Origin: a virus
Direction: 5' to 3' (one strand)
Length of the DNA: 64,000 nucleotides
IMG/VR virus record: IMGVR_UViG_3300019776_000324
Location: 280,245 to 344,244 of that record
A program made the position numbers and the translations under genes. Under the pieces are notes generated by a model. The model saw nothing but the letters and a program-made list of their open reading frames with translations. It did no database searches and was not told the origin of the DNA. This document shows, in pieces, positions 42,972 through 60,775 of this stretch. Within the stretch, counting starts at the first letter, position 1. Every line of letters starts with the position of its first letter.

Positions 42972-43021
42972 CTTATAAGTAATTATAGTTTCGCATTTTA
43001 GTAAAAATGCGTGGTGGGTCG

Positions 43022-43096
43022 GGCTTTAAAGAATTGTTGTAATTCCTTCGTAGGGAAGGCGCTGTGGACCCGGGTTCGATACCCGGCATCTCCACC
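43022..43096 (+). ncRNA. ssrA: Two-piece tmRNA, acceptor piece (permuted gene)
   Basis: The T arm is perfect: CCGGG (43070-43074), loop TTCGATA, CCCGG (43082-43086). It leads directly into the 3' acceptor strand CATCTCC (43087-43093), discriminator A and CC; the next base is G, so the final A must be added. This strand pairs over seven positions with GGGGATG at 43125-43131, which lies downstream, so the gene is circularly permuted. The third pair is G-U, the alanine identity element. The 5' boundary is approximate. Confidence 0.8.
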
Positions 43097-43124
43097 GAAA
43101 GGTATTAGGTTAGTATTTTTCGGT

Positions 43125-43338
43125 GGGGATGAAATGGATTCGACATGGTGAGATACTGAAAGAGGCAACACGGTAGGCGATGACCGTAAATCAAGCAAAT
43201 CTCGTAAATGCAAAAGCATCTACAGGCGAAGTAACTGTTTCAGGCAAGAGCGTTAAGTTCTCTGCTCGTACAGCGAAAGCTTCTTTAGCAGTTTAATCAC
43301 TGCTTAGGGTAGGAAATACCTCGTAACAGAAACAACCT
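43125..43338 (+). ncRNA. ssrA: Two-piece tmRNA, coding piece with peptide-tag frame
   Basis: It starts GGGGATGAAATGGATTCGAC, the conserved tmRNA 5' end and D-loop region. ACGGT-AGGCGATG-ACCGT resembles PK1. The likely resume codon is GCA at 43210, placed about as far from PK1 as in E. coli; the frame runs 28 codons (AKASTGEVTV... to ...KASLAV) to TAA at 43294-43296. An upstream in-frame GCA at 43195 would give 33. The tag is much longer than the usual 8-15 and ends SLAV instead of ALAA. The role is to free stalled ribosomes. Confidence 0.8.
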
Positions 43339-43366
43339 AAAACGGCACTTAATTGTGCCGTTTTTC
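43339..43366 (+). terminator. Rho-independent terminator of tmRNA
   Basis: AAAACGGCAC, loop TTAATT, GTGCCGTTTTT: a ten-pair stem with T tract. Confidence 0.85.
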
Positions 43367-43394
43367 TTGACAAAAACATTTTATAGTATATACT
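43367..43394 (+). promoter_or_regulatory. Promoter of the porin gene
   Basis: TTGACA (43367-43372), 16-base spacer, TATACT (43389-43394). TATAAATA, the T4 late octamer, follows at 43402-43409. About 200 bases of untranslated leader then contain three copies of a (C/T)AGTTTACT-like repeat near 43480, 43540 and 43556. Confidence 0.6.
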
Positions 43395-50017: not shown

Positions 50018-50101
50018 GGAGTGGAAGCATCAATGGTGATGCACTGGACTGTAAATCCGGCGCCTACGGCACGACTGGTTCGATCCCAGTACACTCCACC
50101 A
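50018..50101 (+). tRNA. tRNA-Tyr(GUA)
   Basis: Class II cloverleaf, loop CTGTAAA, long variable arm, encoded CCA. Seventh acceptor pair is mismatched. Confidence 0.9.
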
Positions 50102-50109
50102 ACAGATAA

Positions 50110-50188
50110 CTCGGTGTAGGAAAGTCTGGTTTAATCCGCCTGCTTTGGGAGCAGGAGAGCGAAGGTTCGAATCCTTCTACCGAGACCA
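50110..50188 (+). tRNA. tRNA-Pro(UGG)
   Basis: Acceptor CTCGGTG/TACCGAG, anticodon loop TTTGGGA, T loop TTCGAAT, CCA encoded. The single Pro tRNA of the array. Confidence 0.9.
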
Positions 50189-50194
50189 AAATTT

Positions 50195-50270
50195 GGGGTT
50201 GTAGCTCAGCTGGGAGAGCAACTGCTTTGCAAGCAGAAGGTCAGGGGTTCGATCCCCCTCTTCTCCACCA
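50195..50270 (+). tRNA. tRNA-Ala(UGC)
   Basis: Anticodon TGC in CTGCTTTGCAAGCAG; acceptor GGGGTTG/CTTCTCC keeps the G3-U70 alanine identity pair but has two U-U mismatches at pairs 5 and 6. CCA encoded. Confidence 0.85.
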
Positions 50271-50393
50271 AATTGTAGTTGTGACGATGGTACTAAGTTG
50301 CTAGAAGCTTAGTCTGACGGCTGGTTAGGGATACACGGTGTCCGCGGTATAAGTGAACCAGAACTTCGAGTGCTGATAGGTAAGCTATCTACT
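50271..50393 (+). other. Non-coding spacer with hairpins
   Basis: No gene. CTAAG...CTTAG and CTGGTT...AACCAG inverted repeats suggest structured RNA; nothing recognised. Confidence 0.3.
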
Positions 50394-50496
50394 ATATTGA
50401 AATACATTATTAAAGAGTGCTCTTGTCGGAGACACACTCTTATCTGGACCGACAACTTCCGGGCGTAGCGCCGTTACGTTTAGTGTGTTTCAATAT
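50394..50496 (+). ncRNA. Long-stem structured RNA element B
   Basis: A 16-pair stem ATATTGAAATACATTA / TAGTGTGTTTCAATAT, intact only if two G-U pairs are allowed, encloses about 70 bases. Inner pairings include AAGAGTG...CACTCTT, TTGTCGG...CCGACAA (alternative) and GGCG-TAG-CGCC. Confidence 0.5.
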
Positions 50497-50504
50497 GGTA
50501 ATAT

Positions 50505-50581
50505 GTATCGCATCGTCTAAGGAAGGATACGGGACAGCACGAGCCCTAGATGTAGGTTCAAGTCCTACTGTAGATACACCA
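50505..50581 (+). pseudogene. Degenerate tRNA-like element
   Basis: Good T arm (GTAGG-TTCAAGT-CCTAC), terminal GATACACCA and CATCGTCTAAGG D-arm-like region resembling the tRNA-Glu copy. But the acceptor stem pairs over five bases only, and the anticodon loop AGCACGA lacks U33. Probably a decayed tRNA. Confidence 0.4.
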
Positions 50582-50611
50582 TACACATAAACATTCCAAC
50601 AACAAACGGTA

Positions 50612-50661
50612 AGAGCAAATTAAAATTCCGTTGAGTTGTGCGAGGTCAATGTATTTGCTCT
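50612..50661 (+). ncRNA. Inverted-repeat RNA element E1
   Basis: AGAGCAAAT at 50612-50620 pairs perfectly with ATTTGCTCT at 50653-50661 around 32 bases. No coding potential. Confidence 0.35.
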
Positions 50662-50682
50662 CCGATACCTCTGAGTGTTTAG

Positions 50683-50746
50683 TTGTATGGTATGACTCTG
50701 CTGGGTATGAATCAGATTCTCCGGTGGGTAAGTTACTGCCATACAA
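50683..50746 (+). ncRNA. Inverted-repeat RNA element E2
   Basis: TTGTATGG pairs with CCATACAA around 48 bases, directly before tRNA-Cys. Confidence 0.35.
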
Positions 50747-50752
50747 TATTAT

Positions 50753-50830
50753 GCAACGGTGGCAGAGAGGCCCAATGCAAGGGACTGCAAATCCCTAAAA
50801 CCGTAGGTTCAAATCCTACCCGTTGCTCCA
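50753..50830 (+). tRNA. tRNA-Cys(GCA)
   Basis: GCAACGG/CCGTTGC acceptor, anticodon loop CTGCAAA, T loop TTCAAAT, ends TCCA. Confidence 0.9.
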
Positions 50831-50832
50831 GG

Positions 50833-50861
50833 TTGACATAGACACTAAAAGTCTATATAAT
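50833..50861 (+). promoter_or_regulatory. Consensus sigma70 promoter inside the tRNA array
   Basis: TTGACA, 17 bases, TATAAT; spacer contains TAGAC...GTCTA. Drives tRNA-Asp onward. Confidence 0.75.
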
Positions 50862-50870
50862 AGTTTTATT

Positions 50871-50947
50871 GGTTTGTTAGATCAGTTGGTTAGATTGCCG
50901 CACTGTCACTGCGGAGGCCACGGGTTCGAGTCCCGTACAGACCGCCA
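50871..50947 (+). tRNA. tRNA-Asp(GUC)
   Basis: GGTTTGT/ACAGACC acceptor, loop CTGTCAC, T loop TTCGAGT, GCCA end. Confidence 0.92.
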
Positions 50948-50954
50948 AGTTTTT

Positions 50955-51030
50955 GCTCTCATCGTCTAGAGGCCTAGGACACCGCCCTTTCACGGCGGGT
51001 ACACGAGTTCGAATCTCGTTGAGAGCGCCA
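50955..51030 (+). tRNA. tRNA-Glu(UUC)
   Basis: GCTCTCA/TGAGAGC acceptor, loop CTTTCAC, canonical T loop, GCCA end. Confidence 0.92.
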
Positions 51031-51038
51031 GTACTATC

Positions 51039-51111
51039 GCGGGTTGGAGAAGGAGTATCTCGAGGGTCTCATAAGCCCTAGTCTCTGGTGCGATTCCAGA
51101 ACCCGCAACCA
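51039..51111 (+). tRNA. tRNA with CAU anticodon (copy 1)
   Basis: GCGGGTT/AACCCGC acceptor; anticodon loop CTCATAA. The T loop is TGCGATT rather than TTCGANN, and one extra A precedes CCA. Met or Ile(CAU) cannot be told apart by eye. Confidence 0.75.
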
Positions 51112-51119
51112 GTATCAAT

Positions 51120-51194
51120 TCCCCGTTAGCTCAGCGGTAGAGCAGCAGACTGTTAATCTGTTGGTCCCTGGTTCGATCCCAGGATGGGGAGCCA
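51120..51194 (+). tRNA. tRNA-Asn(GUU)
   Basis: TCCCCGT/ATGGGGA acceptor, loop CTGTTAA, GCCA end. Confidence 0.92.
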
Positions 51195-51201
51195 GTATTA
51201 C

Positions 51202-51291
51202 GGAAATGTGGCAGAGCCCGGTTGATTGCAACAGTCTTGAAAACTGTCGACTGTAAAAGGTCCGTGAGTTCGAATCTCACCGTTTCCGCCA
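51202..51291 (+). tRNA. tRNA-Ser(UGA)
   Basis: Class II, 90 bases; anticodon loop CTTGAAA, long variable arm, GCCA end. Reads UCN. Confidence 0.9.
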
Positions 51292-51311
51292 AGTTTCGCC
51301 CATAACGGATT

Positions 51312-51372
51312 TGACTAACTCGCCTCTCTAGCCTTGTGCAATATGATTGGAAGTGATCGAAGGAGTAAGTCA
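51312..51372 (+). ncRNA. Inverted-repeat RNA element D
   Basis: TGACTAACTC pairs with GAGTAAGTCA with one mismatch around 41 bases, between two serine tRNAs. Confidence 0.3.
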
Positions 51373-51380
51373 CAGAATTT

Positions 51381-51468
51381 GGAAAATTGGCCGAGCGGTT
51401 AAGGCATCAGTTTGCTAAACTGACACTGAGTAATCGGTGGATAGGTTCGACTCCTATATTTTCCGCCA
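51381..51468 (+). tRNA. tRNA-Ser(GCU)
   Basis: Class II; anticodon loop TTGCTAA, GGAAAAT/ATTTTCC acceptor, GCCA end. Reads AGY. Confidence 0.92.
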
Positions 51469-51474
51469 AACAAT

Positions 51475-51549
51475 GCAGGATTAATTCAGTGGTAGAATGT
51501 TTCGTTGCCAACGAAAATGTCATCGGTTCGAACCCGATATCCTGCTCCA
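51475..51549 (+). tRNA. tRNA-Gly(GCC)
   Basis: GCAGGAT/ATCCTGC acceptor, loop TTGCCAA, TCCA end. Confidence 0.92.
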
Positions 51550-51553
51550 ATTT

Positions 51554-51629
51554 GGGTCTTTAGTGAAATGGATATCATATCGGTCTTCGAAACCGTAAGT
51601 TAGGGGTTCGAATCCTCTAGGACCCACCA
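51554..51629 (+). tRNA. tRNA-Arg(UCG)
   Basis: GGGTCTT/AGGACCC acceptor, loop CTTCGAA, canonical T loop, ACCA end. Confidence 0.9.
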
Positions 51630-51645
51630 TAACATAAGTAAAGGT

Positions 51646-52266
51646 ATGAAACAAGCACTAATATTAGGTTGTAGCCACGCTGCCGGAACCGAGATATTCC
51701 CAGATCCTGTTGATACTAAAAATCATAGTTATCCTGCAATAATAGCACAACACCTAGGATACACTGTCAACAATCAAGGAATAGCAGGTGGTAGTAACGA
51801 TGCTATGTTTCGTATCTTCGAAGAACAAAGATTAACACTCAACGAAAATGATATTGTTATAGCCTGCTGGTCTGGTTATACCCGAACAGAAATTTGGAAT
51901 GACGCAACTAATCGTTGGCAAGCTATTGCTCCTGGTAAGTCTGATGTTTATCCCGAGGAATACTTGAAGTATCAAGAACAATGGATAGTATATCATACCG
52001 ATTACCGTATTGGAAGATTGAATAAAATTAAAAATATTCTAGCGTTAAACTGCTTGGCCAATCAACAAAATATCAAAGTTATTAACATTGATAGTTTTTG
52101 GCCAGTTACAGATATGGTTTGGCCAGACGACATTTATTGGCCAGTTACAGATAACTTTTATAATTGGTGCAGTGAACAAAATTACCCTCACACAGACTGG
52201 GGACATTATTTTGAATCAGCACATGAAGAATTTGCAAAATTTGTAGTTAAGCATTTGCCCCGATAG
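51646..52266 (+). CDS. SGNH/GDSL-fold protein, paralogue 5
   Basis: 206 residues. ILGCSHAAGTEIF (block I), IAGGSNDAMFRIF (block II), WSGYTRTEIW (block III), C-terminal HTDWGHYFESAHEEF. It sits alone inside the tRNA array. Its last codons and TAG stop (52264-52266) are formed by the 5' part of a truncated tRNA, so the gene entered the array by recombination into that tRNA. Confidence 0.65.
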   Translation: MKQALILGCSHAAGTEIFPDPVDTKNHSYPAIIAQHLGYTVNNQGIAGGSNDAMFRIFEEQRLTLNENDIVIACWSGYTRTEIWNDATNRWQAIAPGKSDVYPEEYLKYQEQWIVYHTDYRIGRLNKIKNILALNCLANQQNIKVINIDSFWPVTDMVWPDDIYWPVTDNFYNWCSEQNYPHTDWGHYFESAHEEFAKFVVKHLPR

Positions 52267-52282
52267 CTCAGTTGGTTAGAGC
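52257..52282 (+). pseudogene. 5' fragment of a tRNA gene interrupted before the HNH gene
   Basis: GCCCCGATAGCTCAGTTGG then TTAGAGC is a complete acceptor 5' strand and D arm. No anticodon or T arm follows; the sequence runs into the HNH endonuclease leader, and no matching 3' half appears after that gene. Confidence 0.7.
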
Positions 52283-52310
52283 ATAAATACATGCATACGG
52301 AGGTCTTACC

Positions 52311-52694
52311 ATGCCAATATCAACTTGTAAAAATTGTAGTGAAGAATTTAAGCACGGCTACACAAGCACAGGAGTCTATTGTTCTATAAAATGCACTAAA
52401 GAAGGACAACGCAAAGACAGACGACAAAATTTTCTCGAAGGGAAAATGGTTAATCGTGGACTAATGAAAGCGCATCTAGTAGACATATACGGATGGCAAT
52501 GTGCATGCTGTAAGGGGAAGACCTGGCAAGGTCAACTAATTCCACTAGAGCTAGATCATATTGACGGAAATGCTGGTGATAACAGGCCTGAAAATTTGAG
52601 ATTGTTATGTCCAAATTGCCATTCGCAGACGCCAACACATAAAGCAAAAAATAAAGGAAACGGAAGAGGCAGTAGAGGACTTCCGTGGTATTAA
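52311..52694 (+). CDS. HNH homing endonuclease
   Basis: 127 residues. N-terminal zinc finger CKNCSEEF...YCSIKC, then the HNH core: C-A-C-C, PLELDHIDGNAGDNRPENLRLLCPNCHSQT, with H-I-D-G-N and N-x8-C-x2-C-H. GGAGG ribosome site. It probably spreads by cutting DNA in tRNA arrays; it lies between a truncated tRNA and tRNA-Ile. Confidence 0.9.
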   Translation: MPISTCKNCSEEFKHGYTSTGVYCSIKCTKEGQRKDRRQNFLEGKMVNRGLMKAHLVDIYGWQCACCKGKTWQGQLIPLELDHIDGNAGDNRPENLRLLCPNCHSQTPTHKAKNKGNGRGSRGLPWY

Positions 52695-52695
52695 C

Positions 52696-52769
52696 AGCCG
52701 GTTAGTTAAATGGTATAACGGACGCTTGATAAGCGTTTATTACAAGTTCAATTCTTGTACTGGCTACCA
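52696..52769 (+). tRNA. tRNA-Ile(GAU)
   Basis: AGCCGGT/ACTGGCT acceptor, loop TTGATAA, ACCA end. Starts one base after the HNH stop. Confidence 0.9.
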
Positions 52770-52786
52770 GTAGTAAACAGCAATAT

Positions 52787-52860
52787 GAGTCTCTGGTATA
52801 ATGGCATTACATCGGTCTCCAAAACCGCAGATCGGGGTTCGATTCCCTGGAGATTCGCCA
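52787..52860 (+). tRNA. tRNA-Trp(CCA)
   Basis: GAGTCTC/GAGATTC acceptor, loop CTCCAAA, GCCA end. Confidence 0.9.
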
Positions 52861-52878
52861 ACTTAAAGAAAGAAGAAA

Positions 52879-53352
52879 ATGAAGTTCAATATTCCACACA
52901 TTAAACAATTTATAGAAGCGCAAGGTCCAAACACTCGTATCTATATTGGTGTGGATAGTGAACGAGTTCGAGGCGCTGACAAGCAATGGTATGCTGTATA
53001 TACTGCCGCTATTGTTGTACACATCAATGGTAACAATGGTTGTAAGTTATTTGGCGAAGTATCTCGTGAGCGTGACTATGATCGTGTAGATCGTCCTAAC
53101 ACTCGCTTGATGACCGAAGTGTATAAAGTAAGCGAACTATACTTGAAACTAGCAGAAGTATTGGAAGGCCGTGCTGTGGAAGTTCACTTGGATATTAACC
53201 CAGATGATCATCACGCTAGTAGCAATGTAGTGGCGCAGGCTATCGGTTATATTCGTGGCACTTGTAATGTAGAACCTTTGGTTAAGCCTCGTGCATTTGC
53301 CGCAAGTTATGCCGCAGACAGAATGAGAAGTTTGAAGGTTGCTAACGGCTAG
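52879..53352 (+). CDS. RNase H-like protein, YkuK/DUF458 type
   Basis: 157 residues. IYIGVDSERV carries the first acidic residue, VEVHLDINPDDHHASSNVVAQAIGYIRG the others. The family adopts an RNase H fold; cellular substrates are not known. Lying within the tRNA array it could act on RNA. Ribosome site AAAGAAAG is weak. Confidence 0.7.
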   Translation: MKFNIPHIKQFIEAQGPNTRIYIGVDSERVRGADKQWYAVYTAAIVVHINGNNGCKLFGEVSRERDYDRVDRPNTRLMTEVYKVSELYLKLAEVLEGRAVEVHLDINPDDHHASSNVVAQAIGYIRGTCNVEPLVKPRAFAASYAADRMRSLKVANG

Positions 53353-53375
53353 CAACAGTGTTATAATAGTAGCAC

Positions 53376-53452
53376 GGGCCGGTAGCTCATTCGGTTAGAG
53401 CAGAGGACTCATAATCCTTTGGTGGAGTGTTCGAATCACTCTCGGCCCACCA
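53376..53452 (+). tRNA. tRNA with CAU anticodon (copy 2)
   Basis: GGGCCGG/TCGGCCC acceptor, loop CTCATAA, T loop TTCGAAT, ACCA end. TATAAT lies at 53362-53367 just upstream. Confidence 0.9.
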
Positions 53453-53459
53453 GTATTAT

Positions 53460-53542
53460 GCCCCGTTGGTGGAATTGGTAGACACGCTGGTCTTAGAAGC
53501 CAGTGCTTAGGCGTGCGAGTTCGAGTCTCGCATGGGGCACCA
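53460..53542 (+). tRNA. tRNA-Leu(UAG)
   Basis: Class II; GCCCCGT/ATGGGGC acceptor, loop CTTAGAA, ACCA end. Confidence 0.9.
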
Positions 53543-53549
53543 GTAGCAT

Positions 53550-53635
53550 GCGAGTGTGGTGAAATAGGTAGACACGACAGACTTAAAATCTGTTCCTATA
53601 ACGGGGTGCCAGTTCGATTCTGGCCATTCGCACCA
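53550..53635 (+). tRNA. tRNA-Leu(UAA)
   Basis: Class II; anticodon loop CTTAAAA, GCGAGTG acceptor, ACCA end. Confidence 0.9.
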
Positions 53636-53652
53636 ATAATTTAGGAGTTGTT

Positions 53653-53703
53653 ATGTACAAAAATGAAAAGGCCTTCCATCGATCGTAAATGATCGGAGGA
53701 AGT
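53653..53703 (+). promoter_or_regulatory. Leader peptide and ribosome-site-masking hairpin
   Basis: AGGAG then a 12-codon frame (MYKNEKAFHRS, stop 53686-53688). Its end forms a hairpin CTTCC-AT-CGATC, loop GTAAAT, GATCG-GA-GGAAG that buries the GGAGGA (53695-53700) of the next gene. Translation of the leader would open it. Confidence 0.45.
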
Positions 53704-54030
53704 ATGAGCAGAACAAAAAGATTTAAACATGATAAATGGTTAATTAAAGAAAATCGTTTATTACAGGATTTTGAAAGAGTGAGCGGCACTTACACTTGGG
53801 TTTATGTTGACATAGATCCTACTAGTAAGGAAGCTCGTAAGCGTATAGCAAAACTACACAGTGATGCTAAAAAGGGAGTGATGCGTTGGCGTGGGCCAGG
53901 TTGGTTTGTCCACGAATATCATCAAGTTCCTTATCGCCAACAAGCTCGGCGTGAACTACATAAGTTCATGAAAAATCCTGATTATGAAGTACAAATACCG
54001 CGTAAGCCACATTTGACTTACTGGTATTAA
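53689..54030 (+). CDS. Small basic hypothetical protein
   Basis: 113 residues from ATG 53689, or 108 from ATG 53704, which has the better GGAGG spacing. Basic (MSRTKRFKHDKWLIKENRLL), Trp/Tyr-rich, no family. RNA binding is conceivable. Confidence 0.55.
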   Translation: MIGGSMSRTKRFKHDKWLIKENRLLQDFERVSGTYTWVYVDIDPTSKEARKRIAKLHSDAKKGVMRWRGPGWFVHEYHQVPYRQQARRELHKFMKNPDYEVQIPRKPHLTYWY

Positions 54031-54040
54031 CAGTTTCAAA

Positions 54041-54114
54041 GCGGGATTCGTAAAATGGTATTACCTTAGATTTCCAATCTAAAGTCAGGAGTTCGATTCT
54101 CCTATCCCGCTCCA
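54041..54114 (+). tRNA. tRNA-Gly(UCC)
   Basis: GCGGGAT/ATCCCGC acceptor, loop TTTCCAA, TCCA end. Confidence 0.9.
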
Positions 54115-54152
54115 CTACTCCGTCTTAAGGTTGGACGAAAACTAACCCCTAT

Positions 54153-54226
54153 TGAGCTATGGTGTAATGGCAACACTACGGATTTTGATTCCGTCATTCT
54201 AGGTTCGAGTCCTAGTAGCTCTGCCA
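54153..54226 (+). tRNA. tRNA-Gln(UUG)
   Basis: Loop TTTTGAT, T arm CTAGG-TTCGAGT-CCTAG, weak first acceptor pair as usual for Gln, GCCA end. Confidence 0.88.
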
Positions 54227-54236
54227 AACAACACGG

Positions 54237-54279
54237 CTCCCTTCTGTTGCTTAATTGAACAGCTAGGGAGTTCTTTTAT
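54237..54279 (+). terminator. Terminator-like hairpin
   Basis: CTCCCT...AGGGAG with inner CTGTT...AACAG, followed by TTCTTTT. Confidence 0.5.
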
Positions 54280-54354
54280 GCCTCGTTAGCTCAGGAGTAG
54301 AGCAGGACTCTTACAAAGTCAAGGTCGGTGGTGCGAAACCATCACGAGGCACCA
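54280..54354 (+). tRNA. tRNA-Val(UAC)
   Basis: GCCTCGT/ACGAGGC acceptor, loop CTTACAA, ACCA end. T loop TGCGAAA is non-canonical. Confidence 0.85.
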
Positions 54355-54370
54355 CTTATAAAGGAACTAT

Positions 54371-54601
54371 ATGTTTAAAGTATATTGGACGGATCACAGT
54401 AACACACCGCAGGGTATTTACACAAATACCTTAACAGGTGCGTTGCGACTTACTGAAGAAAAGCGTCAAGCTGGTTATACTTTTGTAACAATGGTTTCAG
54501 AAGATCCTAACAGTGTAGGTAAATCTGGAGTTGATAGTGTAGTAGATGGTAAGTTGCCCGATGGCGAAGATTATACTTGGATGATGAGGAGAACACAATG
54601 A
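54371..54601 (+). CDS. Small hypothetical protein
   Basis: 76 residues, AAAGGAA ribosome site, beta-alpha-beta-like (MFKVYWTDHSNTPQGIYTNT). Overlaps the release-factor-like gene by four bases (ATGA). Confidence 0.55.
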   Translation: MFKVYWTDHSNTPQGIYTNTLTGALRLTEEKRQAGYTFVTMVSEDPNSVGKSGVDSVVDGKLPDGEDYTWMMRRTQ

Positions 54602-54978
54602 AGATAACTGAAGATCAATTTAGATACGAATGGTTTTCTGGCACCGGTAAAGGAGGACAGCATCGTAACAAGCATCAAAATTGTTGTCGTTGCGTTCATG
54701 TGCCTACTGGAATTACTGCCAACGGCACTAATAGTCGCAGTCGCGAAGACAATAAGGCAAATGCCCGAGCAGTATGTCTAGCTCGTGTTGGGCGCTACTT
54801 CCACAAAGATACAGAACGATTCCGTGCTACAAACGAAAGAGTGAGAACTTATCATGCTGTTGACAACATAGTATATGATCATGCCAGTGGCGAGAAAGAT
54901 ACCTATCAAAATGTTGTTACCAAAGGCAACATTGATCACTTAATCGAGGCAAGAGCAAAGACCGTAGGAGGCAAATAA
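54598..54978 (+). CDS. GGQ-domain release-factor-like protein
   Basis: 126 residues from ATG 54598 with AGGAGA upstream. The peptidyl-hydrolysis loop is SGTGKGGQHRNK with GGQ at residues 19-21, followed by CVHVPTGITANGTNSRSRE as in class I release factors. Stop-codon recognition domains are absent, so it resembles ArfB-type rescue factors, though the C-terminus is only mildly basic. Likely to free peptides from stalled ribosomes. TAATG overlap with the next gene. Confidence 0.8.
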   Translation: MKITEDQFRYEWFSGTGKGGQHRNKHQNCCRCVHVPTGITANGTNSRSREDNKANARAVCLARVGRYFHKDTERFRATNERVRTYHAVDNIVYDHASGEKDTYQNVVTKGNIDHLIEARAKTVGGK

Positions 54979-55370
54979 TGAGATTTTATGCGGTAGGTAA
55001 CATGTACCTAAGTTCAATACAACAAGGAATACAGGCTGCACACTGCGTGGGCGAAATGGCCTTGAAGATTCTTGGCAACAAGTTAGTCAGTGAATGGTTA
55101 CATACACACAAGACATTAATTTGTCTTAACGGTGGCAATAACAAATCACTAAATGACTTTTATGATTTAGTAAGATATCAAAGTCAATTCCCTGTGGCTA
55201 AGTTTCATGAAGATGAAGAAAGTCTTGGCGGTGTATTGACTTGTGTTGGTATTATTGTACCCAAAGAGATTTATGAAGCAGATTTAGATGATCCTTATCT
55301 TGTAGATAGACTAGGATCAGATGGATTTGAAATTGCTAGAGCACTGAAATCAATGCCCTTAGCAAGATAA
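54978..55370 (+). CDS. Possible peptidyl-tRNA hydrolase 2-like protein
   Basis: 130 residues. IQQGIQAAHCVGEMALK recalls the PTH2 K-G-K-x-A-A-Q-x-x-H-A signature, and a D-E-E-S-L-G-G-V-L-T-C-V-G-I-I-V-P segment recalls its C-terminal strand. Coupling to the GGQ protein supports a peptidyl-tRNA role. The resemblance is limited and needs a structure comparison. Confidence 0.45.
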   Translation: MRFYAVGNMYLSSIQQGIQAAHCVGEMALKILGNKLVSEWLHTHKTLICLNGGNNKSLNDFYDLVRYQSQFPVAKFHEDEESLGGVLTCVGIIVPKEIYEADLDDPYLVDRLGSDGFEIARALKSMPLAR

Positions 55371-55446
55371 GCACCCTAAGCTAACCTGGTGGAAGCGTAT
55401 GCCTGAAGAGCATGAGGGCTTGGTTCGAAACCAAGAGGGTGCACCA
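55371..55446 (+). tRNA. tRNA-Phe(GAA)
   Basis: GCACCCT/AGGGTGC acceptor, loop CTGAAGA, T loop TTCGAAA, ACCA end. Confidence 0.9.
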
Positions 55447-55448
55447 AA

Positions 55449-55538
55449 GCCCGGGTGGCGAAATCGGTAGACGCACTTCTCTCAAAAGGAAGAAGGAAAA
55501 ACACCTAGTTGTGAGTTCGAATCTCATCCCGGGCACCA
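55449..55538 (+). tRNA. tRNA-Leu(CAA)
   Basis: Class II; loop CTCAAAA, GCCCGGG acceptor, ACCA end. Third Leu isoacceptor. Confidence 0.9.
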
Positions 55539-55539
55539 C

Positions 55540-55613
55540 GCTCTCATAGTATAATGGCATTACACTACATTGGTAATGTAGAAACTCTGGATCGTAACCA
55601 GGTGAGAGCACCA
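55540..55613 (+). tRNA. tRNA-Thr(GGU)
   Basis: GCTCTCA/TGAGAGC acceptor, loop TTGGTAA, ACCA end. T loop ATCGTAA is non-canonical. Confidence 0.85.
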
Positions 55614-55619
55614 AACAAT

Positions 55620-55695
55620 GGTGCAGTTAGTGTAGAGGTTAGCACCCCGGATTGTGATTCCGTTAGCATGGGTTCGAATCCCATACAGCACCCCA
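55620..55695 (+). tRNA. tRNA-His(GUG)
   Basis: Loop TTGTGAT; G at -1 faces C73 as required for HisRS; CCA encoded. Fifth acceptor pair is A-A. Confidence 0.9.
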
Positions 55696-55697
55696 GA

Positions 55698-55726
55698 TTG
55701 ACAAATAAACCCATTTCGGGTATAAT
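55698..55726 (+). promoter_or_regulatory. Consensus sigma70 promoter with inverted repeat
   Basis: TTGACA, 17 bases, TATAAT; ACCC-ATTTC-GGGT in the spacer. Nearly identical to the rtcB promoter. Confidence 0.75.
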
Positions 55727-55754
55727 GTAGTATAAACTAAGAAAGGAGCAAGCA

Positions 55755-56054
55755 ATGAAAGTAGTCAAATTAGACAAGCGTCATCGCTTGTTTCGTCGAG
55801 GTATGACCCATGCTTTTCGATTTGAAAACGATTGGATTAACCAACGCCTAGTAGAAAATACTCTAACTGATATGTATGGCTGGGGATATGGTAATCGTAA
55901 CTGGGATACCTTCCGCGGTAAAGTTAAAATCAATCGCGATAGTCGTGGATTGTACGACAGCCGTGTTCATACCTATTGGATAGGTGTTCGTAATGAAGCA
56001 GATCTAACCATGATCATGCTTCGAGTTAATTTACAAGACAAGGAGATATCGTGA
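55755..56054 (+). CDS. Hypothetical protein
   Basis: 99 residues, basic N-terminus (MKVVKLDKRHRLFRRG), AAAGGAGC ribosome site. Arg/Trp-rich. First gene of a three-gene unit under a strong promoter. Confidence 0.55.
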   Translation: MKVVKLDKRHRLFRRGMTHAFRFENDWINQRLVENTLTDMYGWGYGNRNWDTFRGKVKINRDSRGLYDSRVHTYWIGVRNEADLTMIMLRVNLQDKEIS

Positions 56055-56497
56055 GTGAGTTGAATAAACTTATTGGAAAACGCATTAACGGCATTTTCCT
56101 AAACGAAGACAATACTGTGGTAGTGTTTCGCACTATTGAAGACGAACGCATTGCCTTCTATACTCACGGTGATTGTTGCAACACTGTGTACATCAATCAC
56201 TTTCAAGGGCGTGATGTAGTCGGTGAAGGCAATGCTTTTGATTTGTTGCGTGGTGCTCTTGTTACTGCGGTAGAAGAAAAAGAGTGGGTAGCAATTGATG
56301 ACGACGAAACTGAGTATGACGATGATTCATATGGTGGTGGTTGTGTAGAGGATGGTTTCTTTACCATACGCACTAACCGCGGCTACATTGATTTTGAAGT
56401 GCGTAACGAGCACAATGGCTACTACAGTGGTCACTTGAGTGATTGGGATGATGAGATAGATTTGGCTACTCTGCGTCCATTAACAGAAGATTTTTAA
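56051..56497 (+). CDS. Hypothetical acidic protein
   Basis: 148 residues from GTG overlapping the preceding TGA. Two beta-rich halves joined by an acidic loop (IDDDETEYDDDSYGGG). No assigned role. Confidence 0.55.
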   Translation: MSELNKLIGKRINGIFLNEDNTVVVFRTIEDERIAFYTHGDCCNTVYINHFQGRDVVGEGNAFDLLRGALVTAVEEKEWVAIDDDETEYDDDSYGGGCVEDGFFTIRTNRGYIDFEVRNEHNGYYSGHLSDWDDEIDLATLRPLTEDF

Positions 56498-56507
56498 GGA
56501 GATAACG

Positions 56508-56858
56508 ATGTCATTATATAATATGTTGTTTGGTATGAATCCAGACGCAGACAAGCTATTGTCTCTTTTGGATGCTACACAGGAGGACTTTGGTCGCTTT
56601 CGTAATGTTTACATGGAAGATGGTTATATCGTTGTTCACACTCGTTGTGGTGGTGGCAATCGAGAAGATTACTTTCCAGACTGGGTCGAGGACCATCCGT
56701 GGTATAGTCATGACGCAGATCAAGATTTTGACTGCACTTATGCAGACATCTACTTCAAGTTGCCCGAGGACAAGTATAAGACTTTTGCGTCTTTGCTTGA
56801 CCCAGGTGCTAATCCAGAAGAGCAATGGAGTAGTTTGCTAAAAGAGTTGAAGACTTAA
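56508..56858 (+). CDS. Hypothetical protein
   Basis: 116 residues with AAGGAGA ribosome site. VVHTRCGGGNREDYFPDWVEDHPWYSHDADQ is a striking Asp/His-rich segment that could bind metal. Not recognised. Confidence 0.55.
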   Translation: MSLYNMLFGMNPDADKLLSLLDATQEDFGRFRNVYMEDGYIVVHTRCGGGNREDYFPDWVEDHPWYSHDADQDFDCTYADIYFKLPEDKYKTFASLLDPGANPEEQWSSLLKELKT

Positions 56859-56875
56859 AACAGACCCCGCTTTGT

Positions 56876-56895
56876 CTAGTGTGCGATAACACTAG
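56876..56895 (+). promoter_or_regulatory. Hairpin in leader of the small basic gene
   Basis: CTAGTGT, loop GCGATA, ACACTAG; no T tract follows. The core is the reverse order of the stem motif in elements A-C. Confidence 0.4.
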
Positions 56896-56920
56896 CACCA
56901 ACTAACTAAGGAGAAGTAAA

Positions 56921-57103
56921 ATGAAGCAAAGAAACATATATGCCGTATTGGCAAGTAAGAGGAAGGCGGGCTCGCACCGCAAGAGCAATAAAGCTCTAAG
57001 AAAATTAGCTAAACAGACGGGGTATGGTGAAAAGGTATCACATGGCACTTTTAATGCTTCGTTCAAGGTTCAAGTCCTTGTGCCCCGACCAAGTTTATAT
57101 TAA
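56921..57103 (+). CDS. Small basic protein whose 3' end overlaps tRNA-Lys
   Basis: 60 residues, AAGGAGAA ribosome site. The first 34 residues are very basic (KRKAGSHRKSNKALRKLAKQ). The rest is read through the whole tRNA-Lys gene in frame, ending just after it. A shorter ancestral gene truncated by tRNA insertion is possible. Confidence 0.5.
   Translation: MKQRNIYAVLASKRKAGSHRKSNKALRKLAKQTGYGEKVSHGTFNASFKVQVLVPRPSLY
57018..57091 (+). tRNA. tRNA-Lys(UUU)
   Basis: CGGGGTA/TGCCCCG acceptor, loop CTTTTAA, T loop TTCAAGT, ACCA end. Anticodon stem is weak at its first pairs. Confidence 0.85.
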
Positions 57104-57203
57104 AACACACTAAAATACATGGTCCGTCTTATTGGGCATCGCGGATCGAAGACATGGCATGTAAATGCAAAAATGGTTGCCTTAGTGTGTTTTAATATAA
57201 ACT
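57092..57203 (+). ncRNA. Long-stem structured RNA element C
   Basis: A perfect 22-pair inverted repeat (57092-57113 with 57182-57203; core TTAAAACACACTAA / TTAGTGTGTTTTAA) encloses 68 bases with TCCG...CGGA and GGCA...TGCC pairings. It lies exactly between tRNA-Lys and tRNA-Arg and shares its outer stem with elements A and B. Confidence 0.55.
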
Positions 57204-57276
57204 GCCCTTAGTACAACGGATAGTACAATCGGCTTCTACCCGATAAATGTGAGTTCGATTCTTGCAGGGCAGGCCA
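57202..57276 (+). tRNA. tRNA-Arg(UCU)
   Basis: CTGCCCT/AGGGCAG acceptor, loop CTTCTAC, GCCA end. Confidence 0.88.
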
Positions 57277-57281
57277 AATAC

Positions 57282-57358
57282 GGAAATGTAGCATAGTGGC
57301 TTAATGCAGTTGCTTCATACGCAACCTACCGTAGGTTCGAATCCTACCATTTCCACCA
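57282..57358 (+). tRNA. tRNA with CAU anticodon (copy 3)
   Basis: GGAAATG/CATTTCC acceptor, loop TTCATAC, canonical T loop, ACCA end. One of the three CAU copies may be the lysidine-dependent Ile tRNA. Confidence 0.88.
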
Positions 57359-57360
57359 GA

Positions 57361-57389
57361 TTGACAAATAAACCCATTTAGGGTATAAT
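57361..57389 (+). promoter_or_regulatory. Consensus sigma70 promoter of rtcB
   Basis: TTGACA, 17 bases with ACCC-ATTTA-GGGT, TATAAT; duplicate of the 55698 promoter. Confidence 0.75.
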
Positions 57390-57419
57390 GTTTTATTAAC
57401 TTAGAGAAAGGAGCACGAT

Positions 57420-58607
57420 ATGGAAAATGTAAAAATGTGGGTAGGCGACATGGAAGTTGAGCGTGCTGCCTTGGATCAAATTCGCAATATTAGTCAATTA
57501 CCGATACTAGCCGGGCATATGGCTGTCATGCCAGATGTGCATATGGGCAAAGGTGCCACTGTGGGCTCGGTTATTCCTACTCGTGGTGCAATTATTCCTG
57601 CAGCAGTTGGTGTTGACATTGGGTGTGGTATGTGTGCTGTTATGACCAATTTGGTCGCCAGTGACCTGCCAGATTCTCTACACTCATTACGAAACTCTAT
57701 CGAGCGTGGTGTACCTGTTGGGTTTAACGAACACTCTCGTAGTTCTGTCAAGGTTAAAGGTGCAACTGCTGATAAATTGCGTCAAGCCGAAACCAAAATG
57801 TTTCAACGCTGGGAAAAACTGGCACTACGAGACAAATTGGGTCGTGCTGACCCATACAAAATTGCCAATCAAATTGGTACATTGGGCGGCGGCAATCATT
57901 TCATTGAAATCTGTTTAGATTTGGAAGATCGTGTTTGGGTTATGTTGCATTCGGGTTCGCGTGGTATCGGTAATCAAATCGGTACTGTGGCCATTAATAT
58001 GGCTAAAGAAATTGCTGTTCGCGAACAACGCAAGTTGGTTGACATGGACCTGGCATGGTTAGATGAAGGTACTGCTGAATTTAATGCTTATATCGAAGCC
58101 ATGCACTGGGCTCAGGATTATGCTATGCTTAATCGTGACACCATGATGCAGATTGTTTTACAAAACTTACGCCATATGTTTCCTAAGATGAAAACACTTG
58201 GTGAAATCGTAAATGCTCACCATAACTTTACTAACTTTGAGCAACACTTTGGTGAAGGTATGTGGATTACTCGTAAAGGTGCAGTATCTGCTCGTGAAGG
58301 ACAGATGGGTATTATTCCTGGTTCAATGGGTGCTAAATCATTCATTGTGCAAGGCAAGGGCAATGCTGACTCTTACTGTTCTTGTAGTCACGGTGCTGGT
58401 CGCAAGTACAGCCGCACAGGTGCTAAAAAGTTTTTCAACTTGGACGACTTAGCAACACAGACCGCCGGTGTTGAGTGTCGTAAAGATGAAGGCGTACTGG
58501 ACGAAATTCCGGGCGCTTACAAAGACATTGACCAAGTCATGGCAGCCCAGGCTGATCTAGTTAACATCGTACATACCTTGAAACAAGTTATGTGCATCAA
58601 AGGATAA
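57420..58607 (+). CDS. rtcB: RtcB RNA-splicing ligase
   Basis: 395 residues. RtcB joins 2',3'-cyclic phosphate and 5'-OH RNA ends using GTP and manganese. Visible active-site parts are VMPDVHMGKGATVGSVIP, GVDIGCGMCA (metal Cys), GTLGGGNHFIEI, HSGSRGIGNQIG, and the guanylylation region with SCSHGAGRKYSRTGAKK. Placed in the tRNA array under a strong promoter, it could repair tRNAs cut by host anticodon nucleases. The metallophosphoesterase follows 15 bases later. Confidence 0.95.
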   Translation: MENVKMWVGDMEVERAALDQIRNISQLPILAGHMAVMPDVHMGKGATVGSVIPTRGAIIPAAVGVDIGCGMCAVMTNLVASDLPDSLHSLRNSIERGVPVGFNEHSRSSVKVKGATADKLRQAETKMFQRWEKLALRDKLGRADPYKIANQIGTLGGGNHFIEICLDLEDRVWVMLHSGSRGIGNQIGTVAINMAKEIAVREQRKLVDMDLAWLDEGTAEFNAYIEAMHWAQDYAMLNRDTMMQIVLQNLRHMFPKMKTLGEIVNAHHNFTNFEQHFGEGMWITRKGAVSAREGQMGIIPGSMGAKSFIVQGKGNADSYCSCSHGAGRKYSRTGAKKFFNLDDLATQTAGVECRKDEGVLDEIPGAYKDIDQVMAAQADLVNIVHTLKQVMCIKG

Positions 58608-58622
58608 TAGAAAGGAGGCACT

Positions 58623-59210
58623 ATGCCTAGTGTTTGGCTTACAAGCGATACGCACTTTGGTCACGAAGGTGTGTGCCGGTTTTTACAAGCAGATGGTGTG
58701 ACAAAACTTCGCCCGTGGACAGATCCAGCGGAGATGGATGAAGCCATGGTTGCGGCATGGAATGAACGGGTAGGACCAAAGGATAAAGTATATCACCTTG
58801 GTGATGTGGTTATTAATCGTCGGGCACTACCTATCCTAAACAGGCTTAACGGTGACAAAGTTCTTATCCGTGGTAATCACGATATTTTTAAGGACGAGGA
58901 TTACACTCCTTACTTTAGAAGTCTCAGAGCCTACCATGTCATGAATGGAATGATCCTCAGTCATATTCCTATTCATTCAGCTAGTCTCGGTCGTTTCGGA
59001 GTTAACATCCACGGACACTTACACGAAAAGCGTGTCATGCGTGATCTAGCTGTATGTGGGCGTTTGGATGTAGTTGATACCAGATACCATTGCGTATGCG
59101 TGGAGCAAACTCCAGACTTTGCACCTATCCTTTTTGAAGATGTTATCCAAAGAATCAAGGACGAAGGTGGTGTAGTTGGTTTTCAAAACGGTAATGGCCC
59201 TGCGATGTAG
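58623..59210 (+). CDS. Calcineurin-like metallophosphoesterase
   Basis: 195 residues. All metal motifs are present: SDTHFGH (8-14), LGDVV near residue 59, RGNHD near 82 and HGHLHE near 137. AAAGGAGG ribosome site. Downstream of rtcB it may trim phosphates from cleaved RNA ends, but the family hydrolyses many esters. Confidence 0.85.
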   Translation: MPSVWLTSDTHFGHEGVCRFLQADGVTKLRPWTDPAEMDEAMVAAWNERVGPKDKVYHLGDVVINRRALPILNRLNGDKVLIRGNHDIFKDEDYTPYFRSLRAYHVMNGMILSHIPIHSASLGRFGVNIHGHLHEKRVMRDLAVCGRLDVVDTRYHCVCVEQTPDFAPILFEDVIQRIKDEGGVVGFQNGNGPAM

Positions 59211-59240
59211 TTGACAAACATGGCAGGGTCATGCTATAAT
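59211..59240 (+). promoter_or_regulatory. Sigma70 promoter of the omega-like gene
   Basis: TTGACA, 18 bases containing CATG...CATG, TATAAT; starts at the previous stop. Confidence 0.7.
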
Positions 59241-59260
59241 ATACTTTTACAGGAGAAATC

Positions 59261-59485
59261 ATGAAACCAAGAATTGCAAGTCGTGGCCCAGGTATTGATA
59301 CTGAGGAATGTGTTCGACAAGCTGGTGGTGGCCGTTACGATCTAGTGTTAATTGGAGCCCAACGACTGCGCGAACTTAAACGCCAGCATCGCGAAAGTGG
59401 TCGCTATGTTACTCCTGTTGATGCGTTAATTGAGATTCAAGCAGGGCAAGTTAACCTAGCTGATTATCTAGCTAAAGTAAAATAA
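59261..59485 (+). CDS. rpoZ: RNA polymerase omega subunit-like protein
   Basis: 74 residues. The pattern ECVRQAGGGRYDLVLIGAQRLRELKRQHRESGRY followed by TPVDALIEIQAG matches bacterial omega (N-R-F-D-L-V-L-x-A-x-x-R-A-R-Q-L, then A-L-x-E-I). Omega binds beta-prime and forms part of a ppGpp site. A phage copy could replace the host subunit and alter polymerase. It has its own promoter and AGGAG site. Confidence 0.75.
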   Translation: MKPRIASRGPGIDTEECVRQAGGGRYDLVLIGAQRLRELKRQHRESGRYVTPVDALIEIQAGQVNLADYLAKVK

Positions 59486-59489
59486 GTTC

Positions 59490-60164
59490 ATGTACGATAT
59501 CTATGCTCTAGCTAGAGAGCGTAACGATTACTTAAAATTTACCACTACTGGCGATCATAAGATTGAAGTGTTTTATAAGATCGAACTAGACGGCGGTGGT
59601 ACTACTTTTGGGCAAGATTATTTGCCTGTAATTAAGGATCGTTACCCTGGCAGAGTTTTTGATAGAGCGTACGAGTGGTGTTCTGGTCCTGGATTCATTG
59701 GCTTTTCGTTACTGTCGCACGGAATATGTCGAACTGTTTGTTTGAGTGATTTGTATGATCCGTCAATCACAGCCGCAGAAGTTACTATTAACTTTGAACC
59801 AAACCAGTGCCAGGATCTAGCTACAGCGTATCTGTGTAAGGACCTGGGTCTTATACCCGAATATGAACAATTTGATTTAGTGGTCGCTAATCCGCCGCAC
59901 TTTAATGATGTTACTATGAATGACTACACTGGTATTAGAATTTCTAAAGATATCAACTGGACAGCGCATAGAAACTTTTTTAATAATATCAAGCGACATC
60001 TCGCCAAGGATGGTGTAATTTTATTACAAGAACATATCCATGGCGCTACAGTAGATGATTTGGCAGATATGATTAGTAACAATGGTTTAAAAATCACTGG
60101 CAATTTTCGTAGACCCAATGTTGACGAAACTGCTATGTATTATATTGAAATACAACATGCATAA
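59490..60164 (+). CDS. N-methyltransferase with NPPH motif (PrmC/TrmN-like)
   Basis: 224 residues. SAM motif I is YEWCSGPGFIGFSLL and catalytic motif IV is VVANPPHF, like enzymes that methylate exocyclic amines or glutamine amides. Targets could be tRNA, DNA or the release-factor GGQ loop; the context with tRNAs and a GGQ protein makes the translation machinery plausible. Confidence 0.7.
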   Translation: MYDIYALARERNDYLKFTTTGDHKIEVFYKIELDGGGTTFGQDYLPVIKDRYPGRVFDRAYEWCSGPGFIGFSLLSHGICRTVCLSDLYDPSITAAEVTINFEPNQCQDLATAYLCKDLGLIPEYEQFDLVVANPPHFNDVTMNDYTGIRISKDINWTAHRNFFNNIKRHLAKDGVILLQEHIHGATVDDLADMISNNGLKITGNFRRPNVDETAMYYIEIQHA

Positions 60165-60175
60165 GGAAAATTAAA

Positions 60176-60340
60176 ATGGCACAACCAAAACAAACAGCAA
60201 CAGAATTAAGTCGTACATTGGCAGGACAATGGTCTAAGAGTGAAAAGCGAGCAAAGGCAAGCCGTAGTATTATGGACTCTAATAAACGCACTCATGCCAT
60301 CAACAAGGCATTCAAACAGAATCAACTGTTAAATAAATAA
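60176..60340 (+). CDS. Small basic protein
   Basis: 54 residues (MAQPKQTATELSRTLAGQWS...), AAGGAAAAT ribosome site, Lys/Arg-rich helices. Probably nucleic-acid binding. Confidence 0.55.
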   Translation: MAQPKQTATELSRTLAGQWSKSEKRAKASRSIMDSNKRTHAINKAFKQNQLLNK

Positions 60341-60347
60341 TGTAATA

Positions 60348-60440
60348 GGAGGGCTGGCCGAGCGGTCGAAGGCACCCGCCTACTAAGCGGGCATGGGTCT
60401 TAACAACTCATCTGGGGTTCGAATCCCTAGCCCTCCGCCA
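60348..60440 (+). tRNA. tRNA-Ser with ACU anticodon
   Basis: Class II, 93 bases, GGAGGGC/GCCCTCC acceptor, GCCA end. The stem CCCGC/GCGGG encloses CTACTAA, giving anticodon ACU, which is unusual in bacteria. The rest resembles Ser(GCU). Confidence 0.85.
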
Positions 60441-60494
60441 AAATATTTCTTGTTGTAGCAGGCAAAATAAGTAGTAGACAACACAAGGAATATT

Positions 60495-60692
60495 ATGGCA
60501 ACCAAAAAAACATTACAAAGAAAAAAACCAGGCTTTACCAAAGCTGGTGTGGCTAAGATTGTTAGTATGAGCGTTAAACAACTAGTTACCGAATTAGATC
60601 GTACACAAAAGAACAAAGTCAAAGCCAAGATTCAACGCAGATTAAATCATTTTGGTTATGTAGCACCAGTAGTAGAAGCGGTAGCAGAATAA
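60495..60692 (+). CDS. Small basic protein
   Basis: 65 residues, MATKKTLQRKKPGF then a helix-turn-helix-like part (TKAGVAKIVSMSVKQLVTEL). AAGGA ribosome site. Function unknown. Confidence 0.55.
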   Translation: MATKKTLQRKKPGFTKAGVAKIVSMSVKQLVTELDRTQKNKVKAKIQRRLNHFGYVAPVVEAVAE

Positions 60693-60699
60693 GTTTCAA

Positions 60700-60775
60700 G
60701 CCCTTATAGCTCAGTTGGTAGAGCAACTGCTTTGTAAGCAGAAGGTCCGCGGTTCGAGTCCGTGTGAGGGCACCA
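60700..60775 (+). tRNA. tRNA-Thr(UGU)
   Basis: GCCCTTA/TGAGGGC acceptor, loop TTTGTAA, ACCA end. Last tRNA of the array. Confidence 0.92.

Follow-up and report, generated by a model that had tools for sequence, protein, structure and literature searches.

The window analysed here, 64 kb in length and numbered from its first letter, is the final part of a virus contig of 344,244 bases. It holds a tRNA array interleaved with protein genes and, ahead of it, a tmRNA gene. Protein annotation covered the array region of the 344-kb record. The features are as follows.

42983..43387, + strand: permuted (two-piece) beta-type tmRNA, tag frame AKASTGEVTVSGKSVKFSARTAKASLAV followed by a stop (ARAGORN, Rfam RF04321 and RF01850)
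50018..60775, + strand: tRNA array of 29 tRNA genes, every one on the + strand (ARAGORN, Rfam)
52879..53352, + strand: RNase H-like protein (PF04308 7e-17, phrog_11311), flanked by tRNA-Trp and tRNA-Met
54371..54601, + strand: small ORF u76, overlapping the start of the GGQ gene
54598..54978, + strand: GGQ mini release factor, 126 aa
54978..55370, + strand: PTH2-fold protein, 130 aa (phrog_3668 6e-30), its stop codon abutting the 5' end of tRNA-Phe
55698..55726, + strand: sigma-70-like promoter after tRNA-His, near-identical to the copy before rtcB
57361..57389, + strand: sigma-70-like promoter TTGACA-N17-TATAAT, upstream of rtcB and the phosphoesterase gene
57420..58607, + strand: RtcB RNA ligase, 395 aa (Pfam 7e-126), with conserved Cys and His motifs
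58623..59210, + strand: calcineurin-like metallophosphoesterase (MPE; phrog_547 1.5e-47, Pfam Metallophos 6e-6), 15 nt past rtcB

Residents of the tRNA array

ARAGORN called 28 of the array tRNA genes, one of them tRNA-Lys(ttt). A further gene, tRNA-Tyr at 50018-50098, was detected by Rfam only; with this gene added, the array covers 20 of 20 amino acids. The original prediction had placed five protein genes among tRNAs between 54598 and 59210. Profile, Rfam/ARAGORN and fold matches bore out the presence of the GGQ, PTH2-like, RtcB and MPE genes and of the tRNAs, but the RNase H-like gene lies outside this interval, although within the array. Other occupants are many unrelated small ORFs, an HNH nuclease and DUF genes. 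A nucleotide search of known phages returned nothing useful.

The RtcB motifs DIGCG, GNHF, HSGSRG, AHHN and SHGAGR align with solved RtcB, in agreement with membership of this family. rtcB and the MPE gene are likely on one transcript. Both are contiguous here and in three related phages (L002, L003 and L004), in all cases within tRNA arrays. The MPE gene occurs mostly without RtcB and is common in arrays that lack it. According to the available text of PMC7824862 and established knowledge, breaks of the PrrC type (2',3'-cyclic phosphate/5'-OH) fit RtcB, whereas the wobble nucleotide removed by RloC is not restorable by RtcB alone.

For the PTH2-fold protein, the Pfam PTH2 match was merely 0.074, below the cut-off, and a PDB search with the single sequence returned nothing useful. 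Its predicted fold is PTH2-like (pLDDT 69.6), the seven best PDB matches all being PTH2 structures. Residues Q19, H22, E78 and T88 are invariant in the phage family; the canonical lysines, judged by comparison with human PTH2, were not evident there. Homologues in known phages adjoin tRNA nucleotidyltransferase genes. The two closest PTH2 loci contain neither a GGQ gene nor tRNAs, and in L178 and L179 u76 lies directly 5' of the PTH2 gene. The contact between the GGQ and PTH2 genes looks like a recent insertion.

The GGQ protein and its position among tRNAs

The GGQ protein matched Pfam RF-1 at 1.7e-13. A profile of its family matched RF1/RF2 from domain 3 onward (2e-21), C12orf65 (1.7e-11), PrfH (1.7e-10) and, at 0.003, ArfB. 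The family corresponds to about the C-terminal third of RF1/RF2, the match starting at RF residue 192-250 or thereabouts, and the best PDB matches of the AlphaFold model (pLDDT 85.5) were RF1/RF2. The GGQ motif and the adjacent HRNKHQN are invariant across 45 relatives. Thus, domain 3 of class I release factors, with the C-terminal part, is present, while domain 1 and the codon-recognition domain 2, with its stop-codon recognition loop, are absent from the 126 residues. Homologues in known phages are only about 25-31% identical, and those that are annotated are RF1/RF2. A basic C-terminal tail of the ArfB type is also absent, the last 25 residues having a mean net charge of +0.27 and a maximum of +3 in the 45 relatives. 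Lacking both this tail and the codon-recognition domain, the protein has no explained mode of ribosome binding, which counts against a role in rescue.

Based on profile scores, missing domains and tail charge, membership in PrfH, ArfB or full RF1/RF2 was rejected. The mitochondrial rescue factor C12orf65/mtRF-R likewise has a GGQ domain without codon recognition, but the phage protein retains the RF C-terminal segment. ArfB/YaeJ is also a small codon-independent GGQ hydrolase, an activity that is predicted for the phage protein; it differs in its basic tail, and the profile match to it is marginal.

Coupling of GGQ factors to RtcB is known from bacteria (PMC6514570, PMC9223846). RtcB2-PrfH, the one tested system of this type, guards cells from cleavage of 16S rRNA but gives no protection from tRNA toxins (PMC9223846). 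The bacterial operon (PMC1586002, PMC9223846) and the phage locus both have a GGQ factor and an RtcB ligase in one neighbourhood. Kinship to this system, in which the GGQ protein would clear ribosomes with cut 16S rRNA and RtcB would reseal the rRNA, would account for the identical domain pair and for PrfH among the profile matches. However, the scores fell below both NCBIfam cut-offs (prfH 49.7 bits against 166.65, at profile positions 102-181 only; release_rtcB 144.5 bits against 271.8), and the N-terminal domain of PrfH, some 100 residues, is missing. In addition, the GGQ gene and rtcB are 2.4 kb apart with tRNAs and other genes between them, so that they form no operon, and the pair is not conserved together in relatives. 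We therefore regard this kinship as very improbable.

Among 38 nonredundant GGQ loci of a clade at ≥65% identity, 19 had the GGQ gene flanked at either end by a tRNA no more than 100 nt away, compared to 0.15 expected by random placement. In these loci the array tRNAs share the strand of the GGQ gene. Among relatives more distant than this clade, such tight flanking was found in 0 of 17. Of the genes studied, the GGQ gene is the sole regular resident of such tRNA arrays.

The permuted tmRNA

The tmRNA matched RF04321 with 127.5 bits (cut-off 47), ARAGORN also classed it as permuted, and its 3' tRNA domain precedes the 5' domain. It had been placed 7 kb away; this holds for the start of the array, which it precedes by about 7 kb, whereas the GGQ gene is about 11.2 kb distant. 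The tag is 28 aa long and ends in SLAV without the usual ...ALAA, an ending that is not strictly defining for tmRNA. Tags of like kind, conserved, basic and 26-29 aa long, occur in at least 16 other phage contigs, and an ARAGORN error as the origin of the odd tag was rejected. Derivation of the AKASTGEVTV tag from bacteria was rejected as well: among 84,980 species genomes there was a single match, for which no tmRNA was called and which resembles normal coding sequence. Values of pN/pS for the long tag were 0.30 and 0.35 in two groups with like tag ends, 1.68 in a third and 0.70 when pooled, a weak measure, as some tag positions were preset by the search pattern. No SmpB was detectable as encoded in the 344-kb record.

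Of 15 GGQ-clade records of at least 100 kb, 12 carried both the mini factor and a permuted tmRNA, and in six nonredundant loci the two were spaced by about 1-6 kb. A tmRNA was also present in 4 of 14 other large phage records, and the association may stem from common ancestry. The marine methylophage Melnitz likewise has a two-piece phage tmRNA (PMC9004378); in contrast, the tmRNA described here is of the beta type, and it and related phage tmRNAs encode the long basic tags. Huge phages share tRNA arrays, tRNA ligation genes, release factors, tmRNA and SmpB (Al-Shayeb et al. 2020, PMC7162821), but the factors named there are RF1/RF2, whereas the protein here is roughly a third as long as an RF, and SmpB was not found.

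Linkage in relatives and possible roles

Of 43 records with a GGQ gene, only one had RtcB and two had PTH2. Conversely, the GGQ profile was found in 5 of 50 RtcB records, mostly as divergent and far-off matches, and RtcB in 0 of 43 MPE/tmRNA records. A conserved five-gene module was rejected on these counts. A PrmC-like methyltransferase as partner of the GGQ factor was also unsupported, showing no linkage to GGQ in relatives. The genes were acquired independently of one another and do not make up a single inherited system: the scattered, unlinked occurrence that had been named as contrary to the prediction is largely what relatives display.

The original prediction read all genes as one counter to tRNA-cleaving defences, in which RtcB with the MPE would reseal tRNAs, the GGQ protein and tmRNA would free ribosomes and PTH2 would recycle peptidyl-tRNA. 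Each gene could plausibly act in repair of tRNA or in rescue of ribosomes, and their setting in the array is genuine: every part lies in one array, which includes tRNA-Lys(ttt), the target of PrrC, and the rtcB-MPE operon is kept in three related arrays. However, the genes rarely co-occur in relatives, the GGQ-PTH2 contact resembles a recent insertion, and in one phage (G050) GGQ and tmRNA are about 1.4 kb apart with RtcB about 180 kb away. We consider such a single system unlikely. The combination had been thought undescribed in phages, but the available text of Iyer et al. 2021 (PMC7824862) already reports tRNAs, RtcB, PTH2 and calcineurin-like phosphatases in jumbo phages and proposes, by the same logic, that they reverse tRNA-cleaving defence. 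That text describes neither an array-embedded GGQ mini factor nor a tmRNA partner. The idea of countering cleavage by these genes is therefore known, and it is the array-borne 126-aa GGQ family that stands out.

Alternatively, the array might be only a hotspot of gene exchange whose residents are independent, some being unrelated to RNA (MPE, RNase H-like, HNH and DUF genes). The many unrelated small ORFs and the HNH nuclease, the varying gene content of close relatives, the frequency of the MPE gene in RtcB-less arrays and the repeated near-identical promoters are in line with this. In contrast, several of the residents that can be identified are predicted to act in translation or on RNA, and the GGQ gene is repeatedly found tightly between tRNAs. 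On balance, this explanation appears rather improbable.

We give about an even chance to a combined explanation, in which a large freshwater phage gathered translation-maintenance genes singly in its tRNA array and the mini factor would act on stalled ribosomes by stop-codon-independent peptide release. The analysis shows what the genes are, their folds, their embedding in the array and the absence of conserved linkage; we infer the activities of all proteins, the mini factor's route to ribosomes and a role, if there is one, against anticodon nucleases. In the combined explanation, the mini factor would enter the ribosomal A site or bind the split 50S subunit and hydrolyse peptidyl-tRNA independently of any stop codon, which would free ribosomes that have stalled in infection. 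The permuted tmRNA might act alongside and would have to rely on host SmpB. The rtcB-phosphoesterase operon and the PTH2-fold gene would have been added beside GGQ, here alone among the phages seen; the former may rejoin RNA with 2',3'-cyclic phosphate/5'-OH ends, and the PTH2-fold protein may recycle dropped-off peptidyl-tRNA. The case separates two easily merged ideas, a theme common to the genes of one array and a system that is inherited.

More speculatively, and with doubt prevailing, large freshwater phages may run a rescue regime of their own, in which the array-borne mini factor and permuted tmRNAs, with a conserved basic tag of 26-29 aa replacing the proteolysis tag, would free ribosomes without the usual protease tagging, RtcB, PTH2 and phosphoesterase being optional. 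Should the mini factor release peptide with no stop codon involved, it would represent a naturally occurring release factor of minimal size and would demonstrate phage upkeep of ribosome turnover under host attack on translation. Embedding in a tRNA array provides a simple handle to find such factors.

Gene content and layout of the tRNA array

The window forms the final 64 kb of the 344,244-base virus record and contains the following features:

42983-43387, tmRNA, permuted, beta type
52879-53352, RNase H-like gene
54598-54978, GGQ protein
54978-55370, PTH2-like protein
57420-58607, RtcB
58623-59210, metallophosphoesterase (MPE)

The GGQ protein, PTH2-like protein, RtcB and MPE were each confirmed at their coordinates within 54598-59210; the RNase H-like gene, placed in the same interval by the original prediction, exists but lies outside it. 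ARAGORN identified 28 tRNAs in the array and Rfam an additional one at 50018-50098, whose anticodon loop (CTGTAAA) corresponds to Tyr(GUA), so that all 20 amino acids are covered. The GGQ gene overlaps both of its neighbours, the small open reading frame u76 at its start and the beginning of PTH2 at its stop; the stop codon of PTH2 directly abuts tRNA-Phe, and MPE lies 15 nt downstream of rtcB. This layout of overlapping and abutting genes suggests mixed tRNA-mRNA transcripts. A strong sigma-70-like promoter occurs at 55698 and a near-identical one at 57361, ahead of rtcB.

A methyltransferase 280 nt past MPE (59490-60164) carries an NPPH motif; its top NCBIfam match is PrmC, the release factor glutamine methyltransferase (6e-7, far under the cut-off). 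A 370-aa protein at 61775-62887 shows the motif SGGIDST, as is typical for PP-loop ATPases, and has no NCBIfam match.

Linkage of the array genes across relatives

The array genes had been read as one counter-defence system. The neighbourhoods in relatives do not bear this out as an inherited unit: the partners are mostly unlinked, with RtcB present in 1 of 43 GGQ records and PTH2 in 2 of 43 (the same by BLAST and profile), while GGQ profile matches occurred in 5 of 50 RtcB records; the records are mostly fragments, so that absence of a gene is no proof for any single phage. In a 369-kb GGQ-bearing record (G050), the GGQ gene lies about 1.4 kb from the tmRNA and RtcB about 180 kb off. RtcB of 86-91% identity is placed in tRNA arrays in the viral loci L002-L007, with MPE directly 3' of it in L002, L003 and L004. 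MPE without RtcB is common in tRNA arrays, the RtcB search of MPE and tmRNA records having no positive control there and the identical query matching among GGQ records. RtcB, PTH2 and MPE are not fixed partners of GGQ. Inheritance does not support the reading as a single system; within this particular phage, the array genes may still act together.

Reversal of tRNA cleavage and ribosome jamming has been proposed for jumbo phages which, like the window, carry tRNAs, RtcB, PTH2 and phosphatases of the calcineurin-like type (PMC7824862). tRNA ligation genes, RF1/RF2, tmRNA and SmpB are known from huge phages (PMC7162821), and phage tRNAs that replace host ones and are insensitive to host tRNases have been published (PMC10264068, PMC11555353).

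The GGQ and PTH2-fold proteins

An alignment of 45 phage relatives revealed an invariant core, W-S-G-GGQHRNKHQN-C-R, and an R-Y-V-D signature downstream. In a PDB search, the family profile matched RF1 and RF2 at 2e-21, over a stretch that begins with domain 3 and reaches almost to the C-terminus, and to a lesser degree C12orf65 (1.7e-11), PrfH (1.7e-10) and, barely, ArfB (0.003). RF1/RF2 were likewise the best folds for the predicted structure (mean pLDDT 85.5). Given these profile matches and the predicted fold, the GGQ protein is equivalent to the C-terminal third of class I release factors: the hydrolase domain is retained, and domain 1 and the stop-codon domain are missing. No basic tail of the ArfB type was found in it. 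The known GGQ-RtcB coupling, RtcB2-PrfH, protects against colicin E3 but gives no protection from colicins E5 and D, which cut tRNAs (PMC9223846). The window GGQ protein falls below the NCBIfam PrfH cut-off.

tRNAs lie within 100 nt on both flanks of the GGQ gene in 19 of 38 nonredundant loci (relatives of at least 65% identity), compared to 0.15 expected by random placement, and in 0 of 17 among more distant relatives. Thus, the GGQ gene is a regular tRNA-array resident in one clade. The loose gene order u76, divergent GGQ (34-37%), u99 and MPE, as in the window, was seen in other phages, at L186, L188, L189, L191, L225, L231 and L232.

Sequence evidence for the PTH2-like protein is weak (Pfam 0.074); the seven best PDB matches of its AlphaFold model (three sequences, pLDDT 69.6) are PTH2 enzymes. 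tRNA nucleotidyltransferase genes adjoin PTH2 homologues in known phages, which supports a putative tRNA-related role. The canonical PTH2 lysines are not obviously conserved in this predicted hydrolase. In the loci of its two closest viral relatives (71-73%), which are without tRNAs, u76 leads straight into PTH2. The window u76 ends in ...MMRRTQ as in these loci, and overlapping-frame DDEENT at this end matches EDAENT of one of them (L179); GGQ and then PTH2 follow. As the u76 end is shared and GGQ intervenes in the window, it looks as though GGQ entered there at the start of PTH2, or was lost elsewhere.

tmRNA tags and hairpins

Of 15 GGQ-clade records of at least 100 kb, 12 contain a permuted tmRNA, compared to 4 among 14 large records from other phages; since the records are related and not independent, this co-occurrence may reflect clade membership rather than coupling. 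SmpB was found neither in this record nor in 18 others, so that the phage tmRNA would need host SmpB.

The window tmRNA encodes the tag AKASTGEVTVSGKSVKFSARTAKASLAV (43210-43296). An annotation error was rejected, as the same kind of tag recurs in other contigs by two search routes. A degenerate tag search returned 17 contigs; in 16 of these the called tmRNA bears a 29-aa tag like AKASTGEVTVSGKSVKFSARTAKASLAV, and a tag-independent search by T-arm sequence yielded more versions, e.g. ANASKGEVTVSGKGIRFSARTAQRQTLAV; two GGQ-bearing phages carry the distant forms AKASTNGSFKFSGKGVKLASARREAVLA and ANANTKGEVAINARGVKIARRAAVLA. These conserved basic tags of permuted phage tmRNAs (AKASTGEVTVSGKNVKFSARTAKAESFAV and variants) comprise 26-29 aa, end in FAV, LAV or VLA, not ALAA, and have a net charge of +3 to +5; in ANDEQFALAA-type tags it is -1 to -2. 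Besides the window, they occur in L187, L208, L260-L264, L266-L276, L311 and L348. A search of 84,980 species genomes found no tmRNA with the AKASTGEVTV form. Follow-up is deserved by the array-borne GGQ mini factor and by the long tmRNA tags; a limited search of the open-access literature returned no description of the mini GGQ family or of the long tags. Further odd phage tmRNA tags are of the AEENAFDFAALSFTGNTVGGRVAVAA type (L337, L343, L349, L359) and the GEQVEMAMAA type (L310, L312, L320, L321, L326, L333, L336, L350).

Gaps between tRNA genes are filled by hairpins with perfect stems of at least 15 bp, at a density of 0.184 per kb compared to 0.010 elsewhere (90 loci). Their loops vary between elements, and no Rfam match was found. 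The window hairpin at 57092-57204 has a 22-bp stem and a folding z-score of -6.1; others lie at L004 3333, L006 7959, L207 1253, L118 17615, L223 4466, L210 1351 and L215 6870, among further loci. In four arrays (window, at 56921-57103, L004, L006 and L207), a gene for a small basic peptide with a RKAGSHRKSNKALR motif is located directly 5' of tRNA-Lys(ttt) and is followed by the hairpin element.
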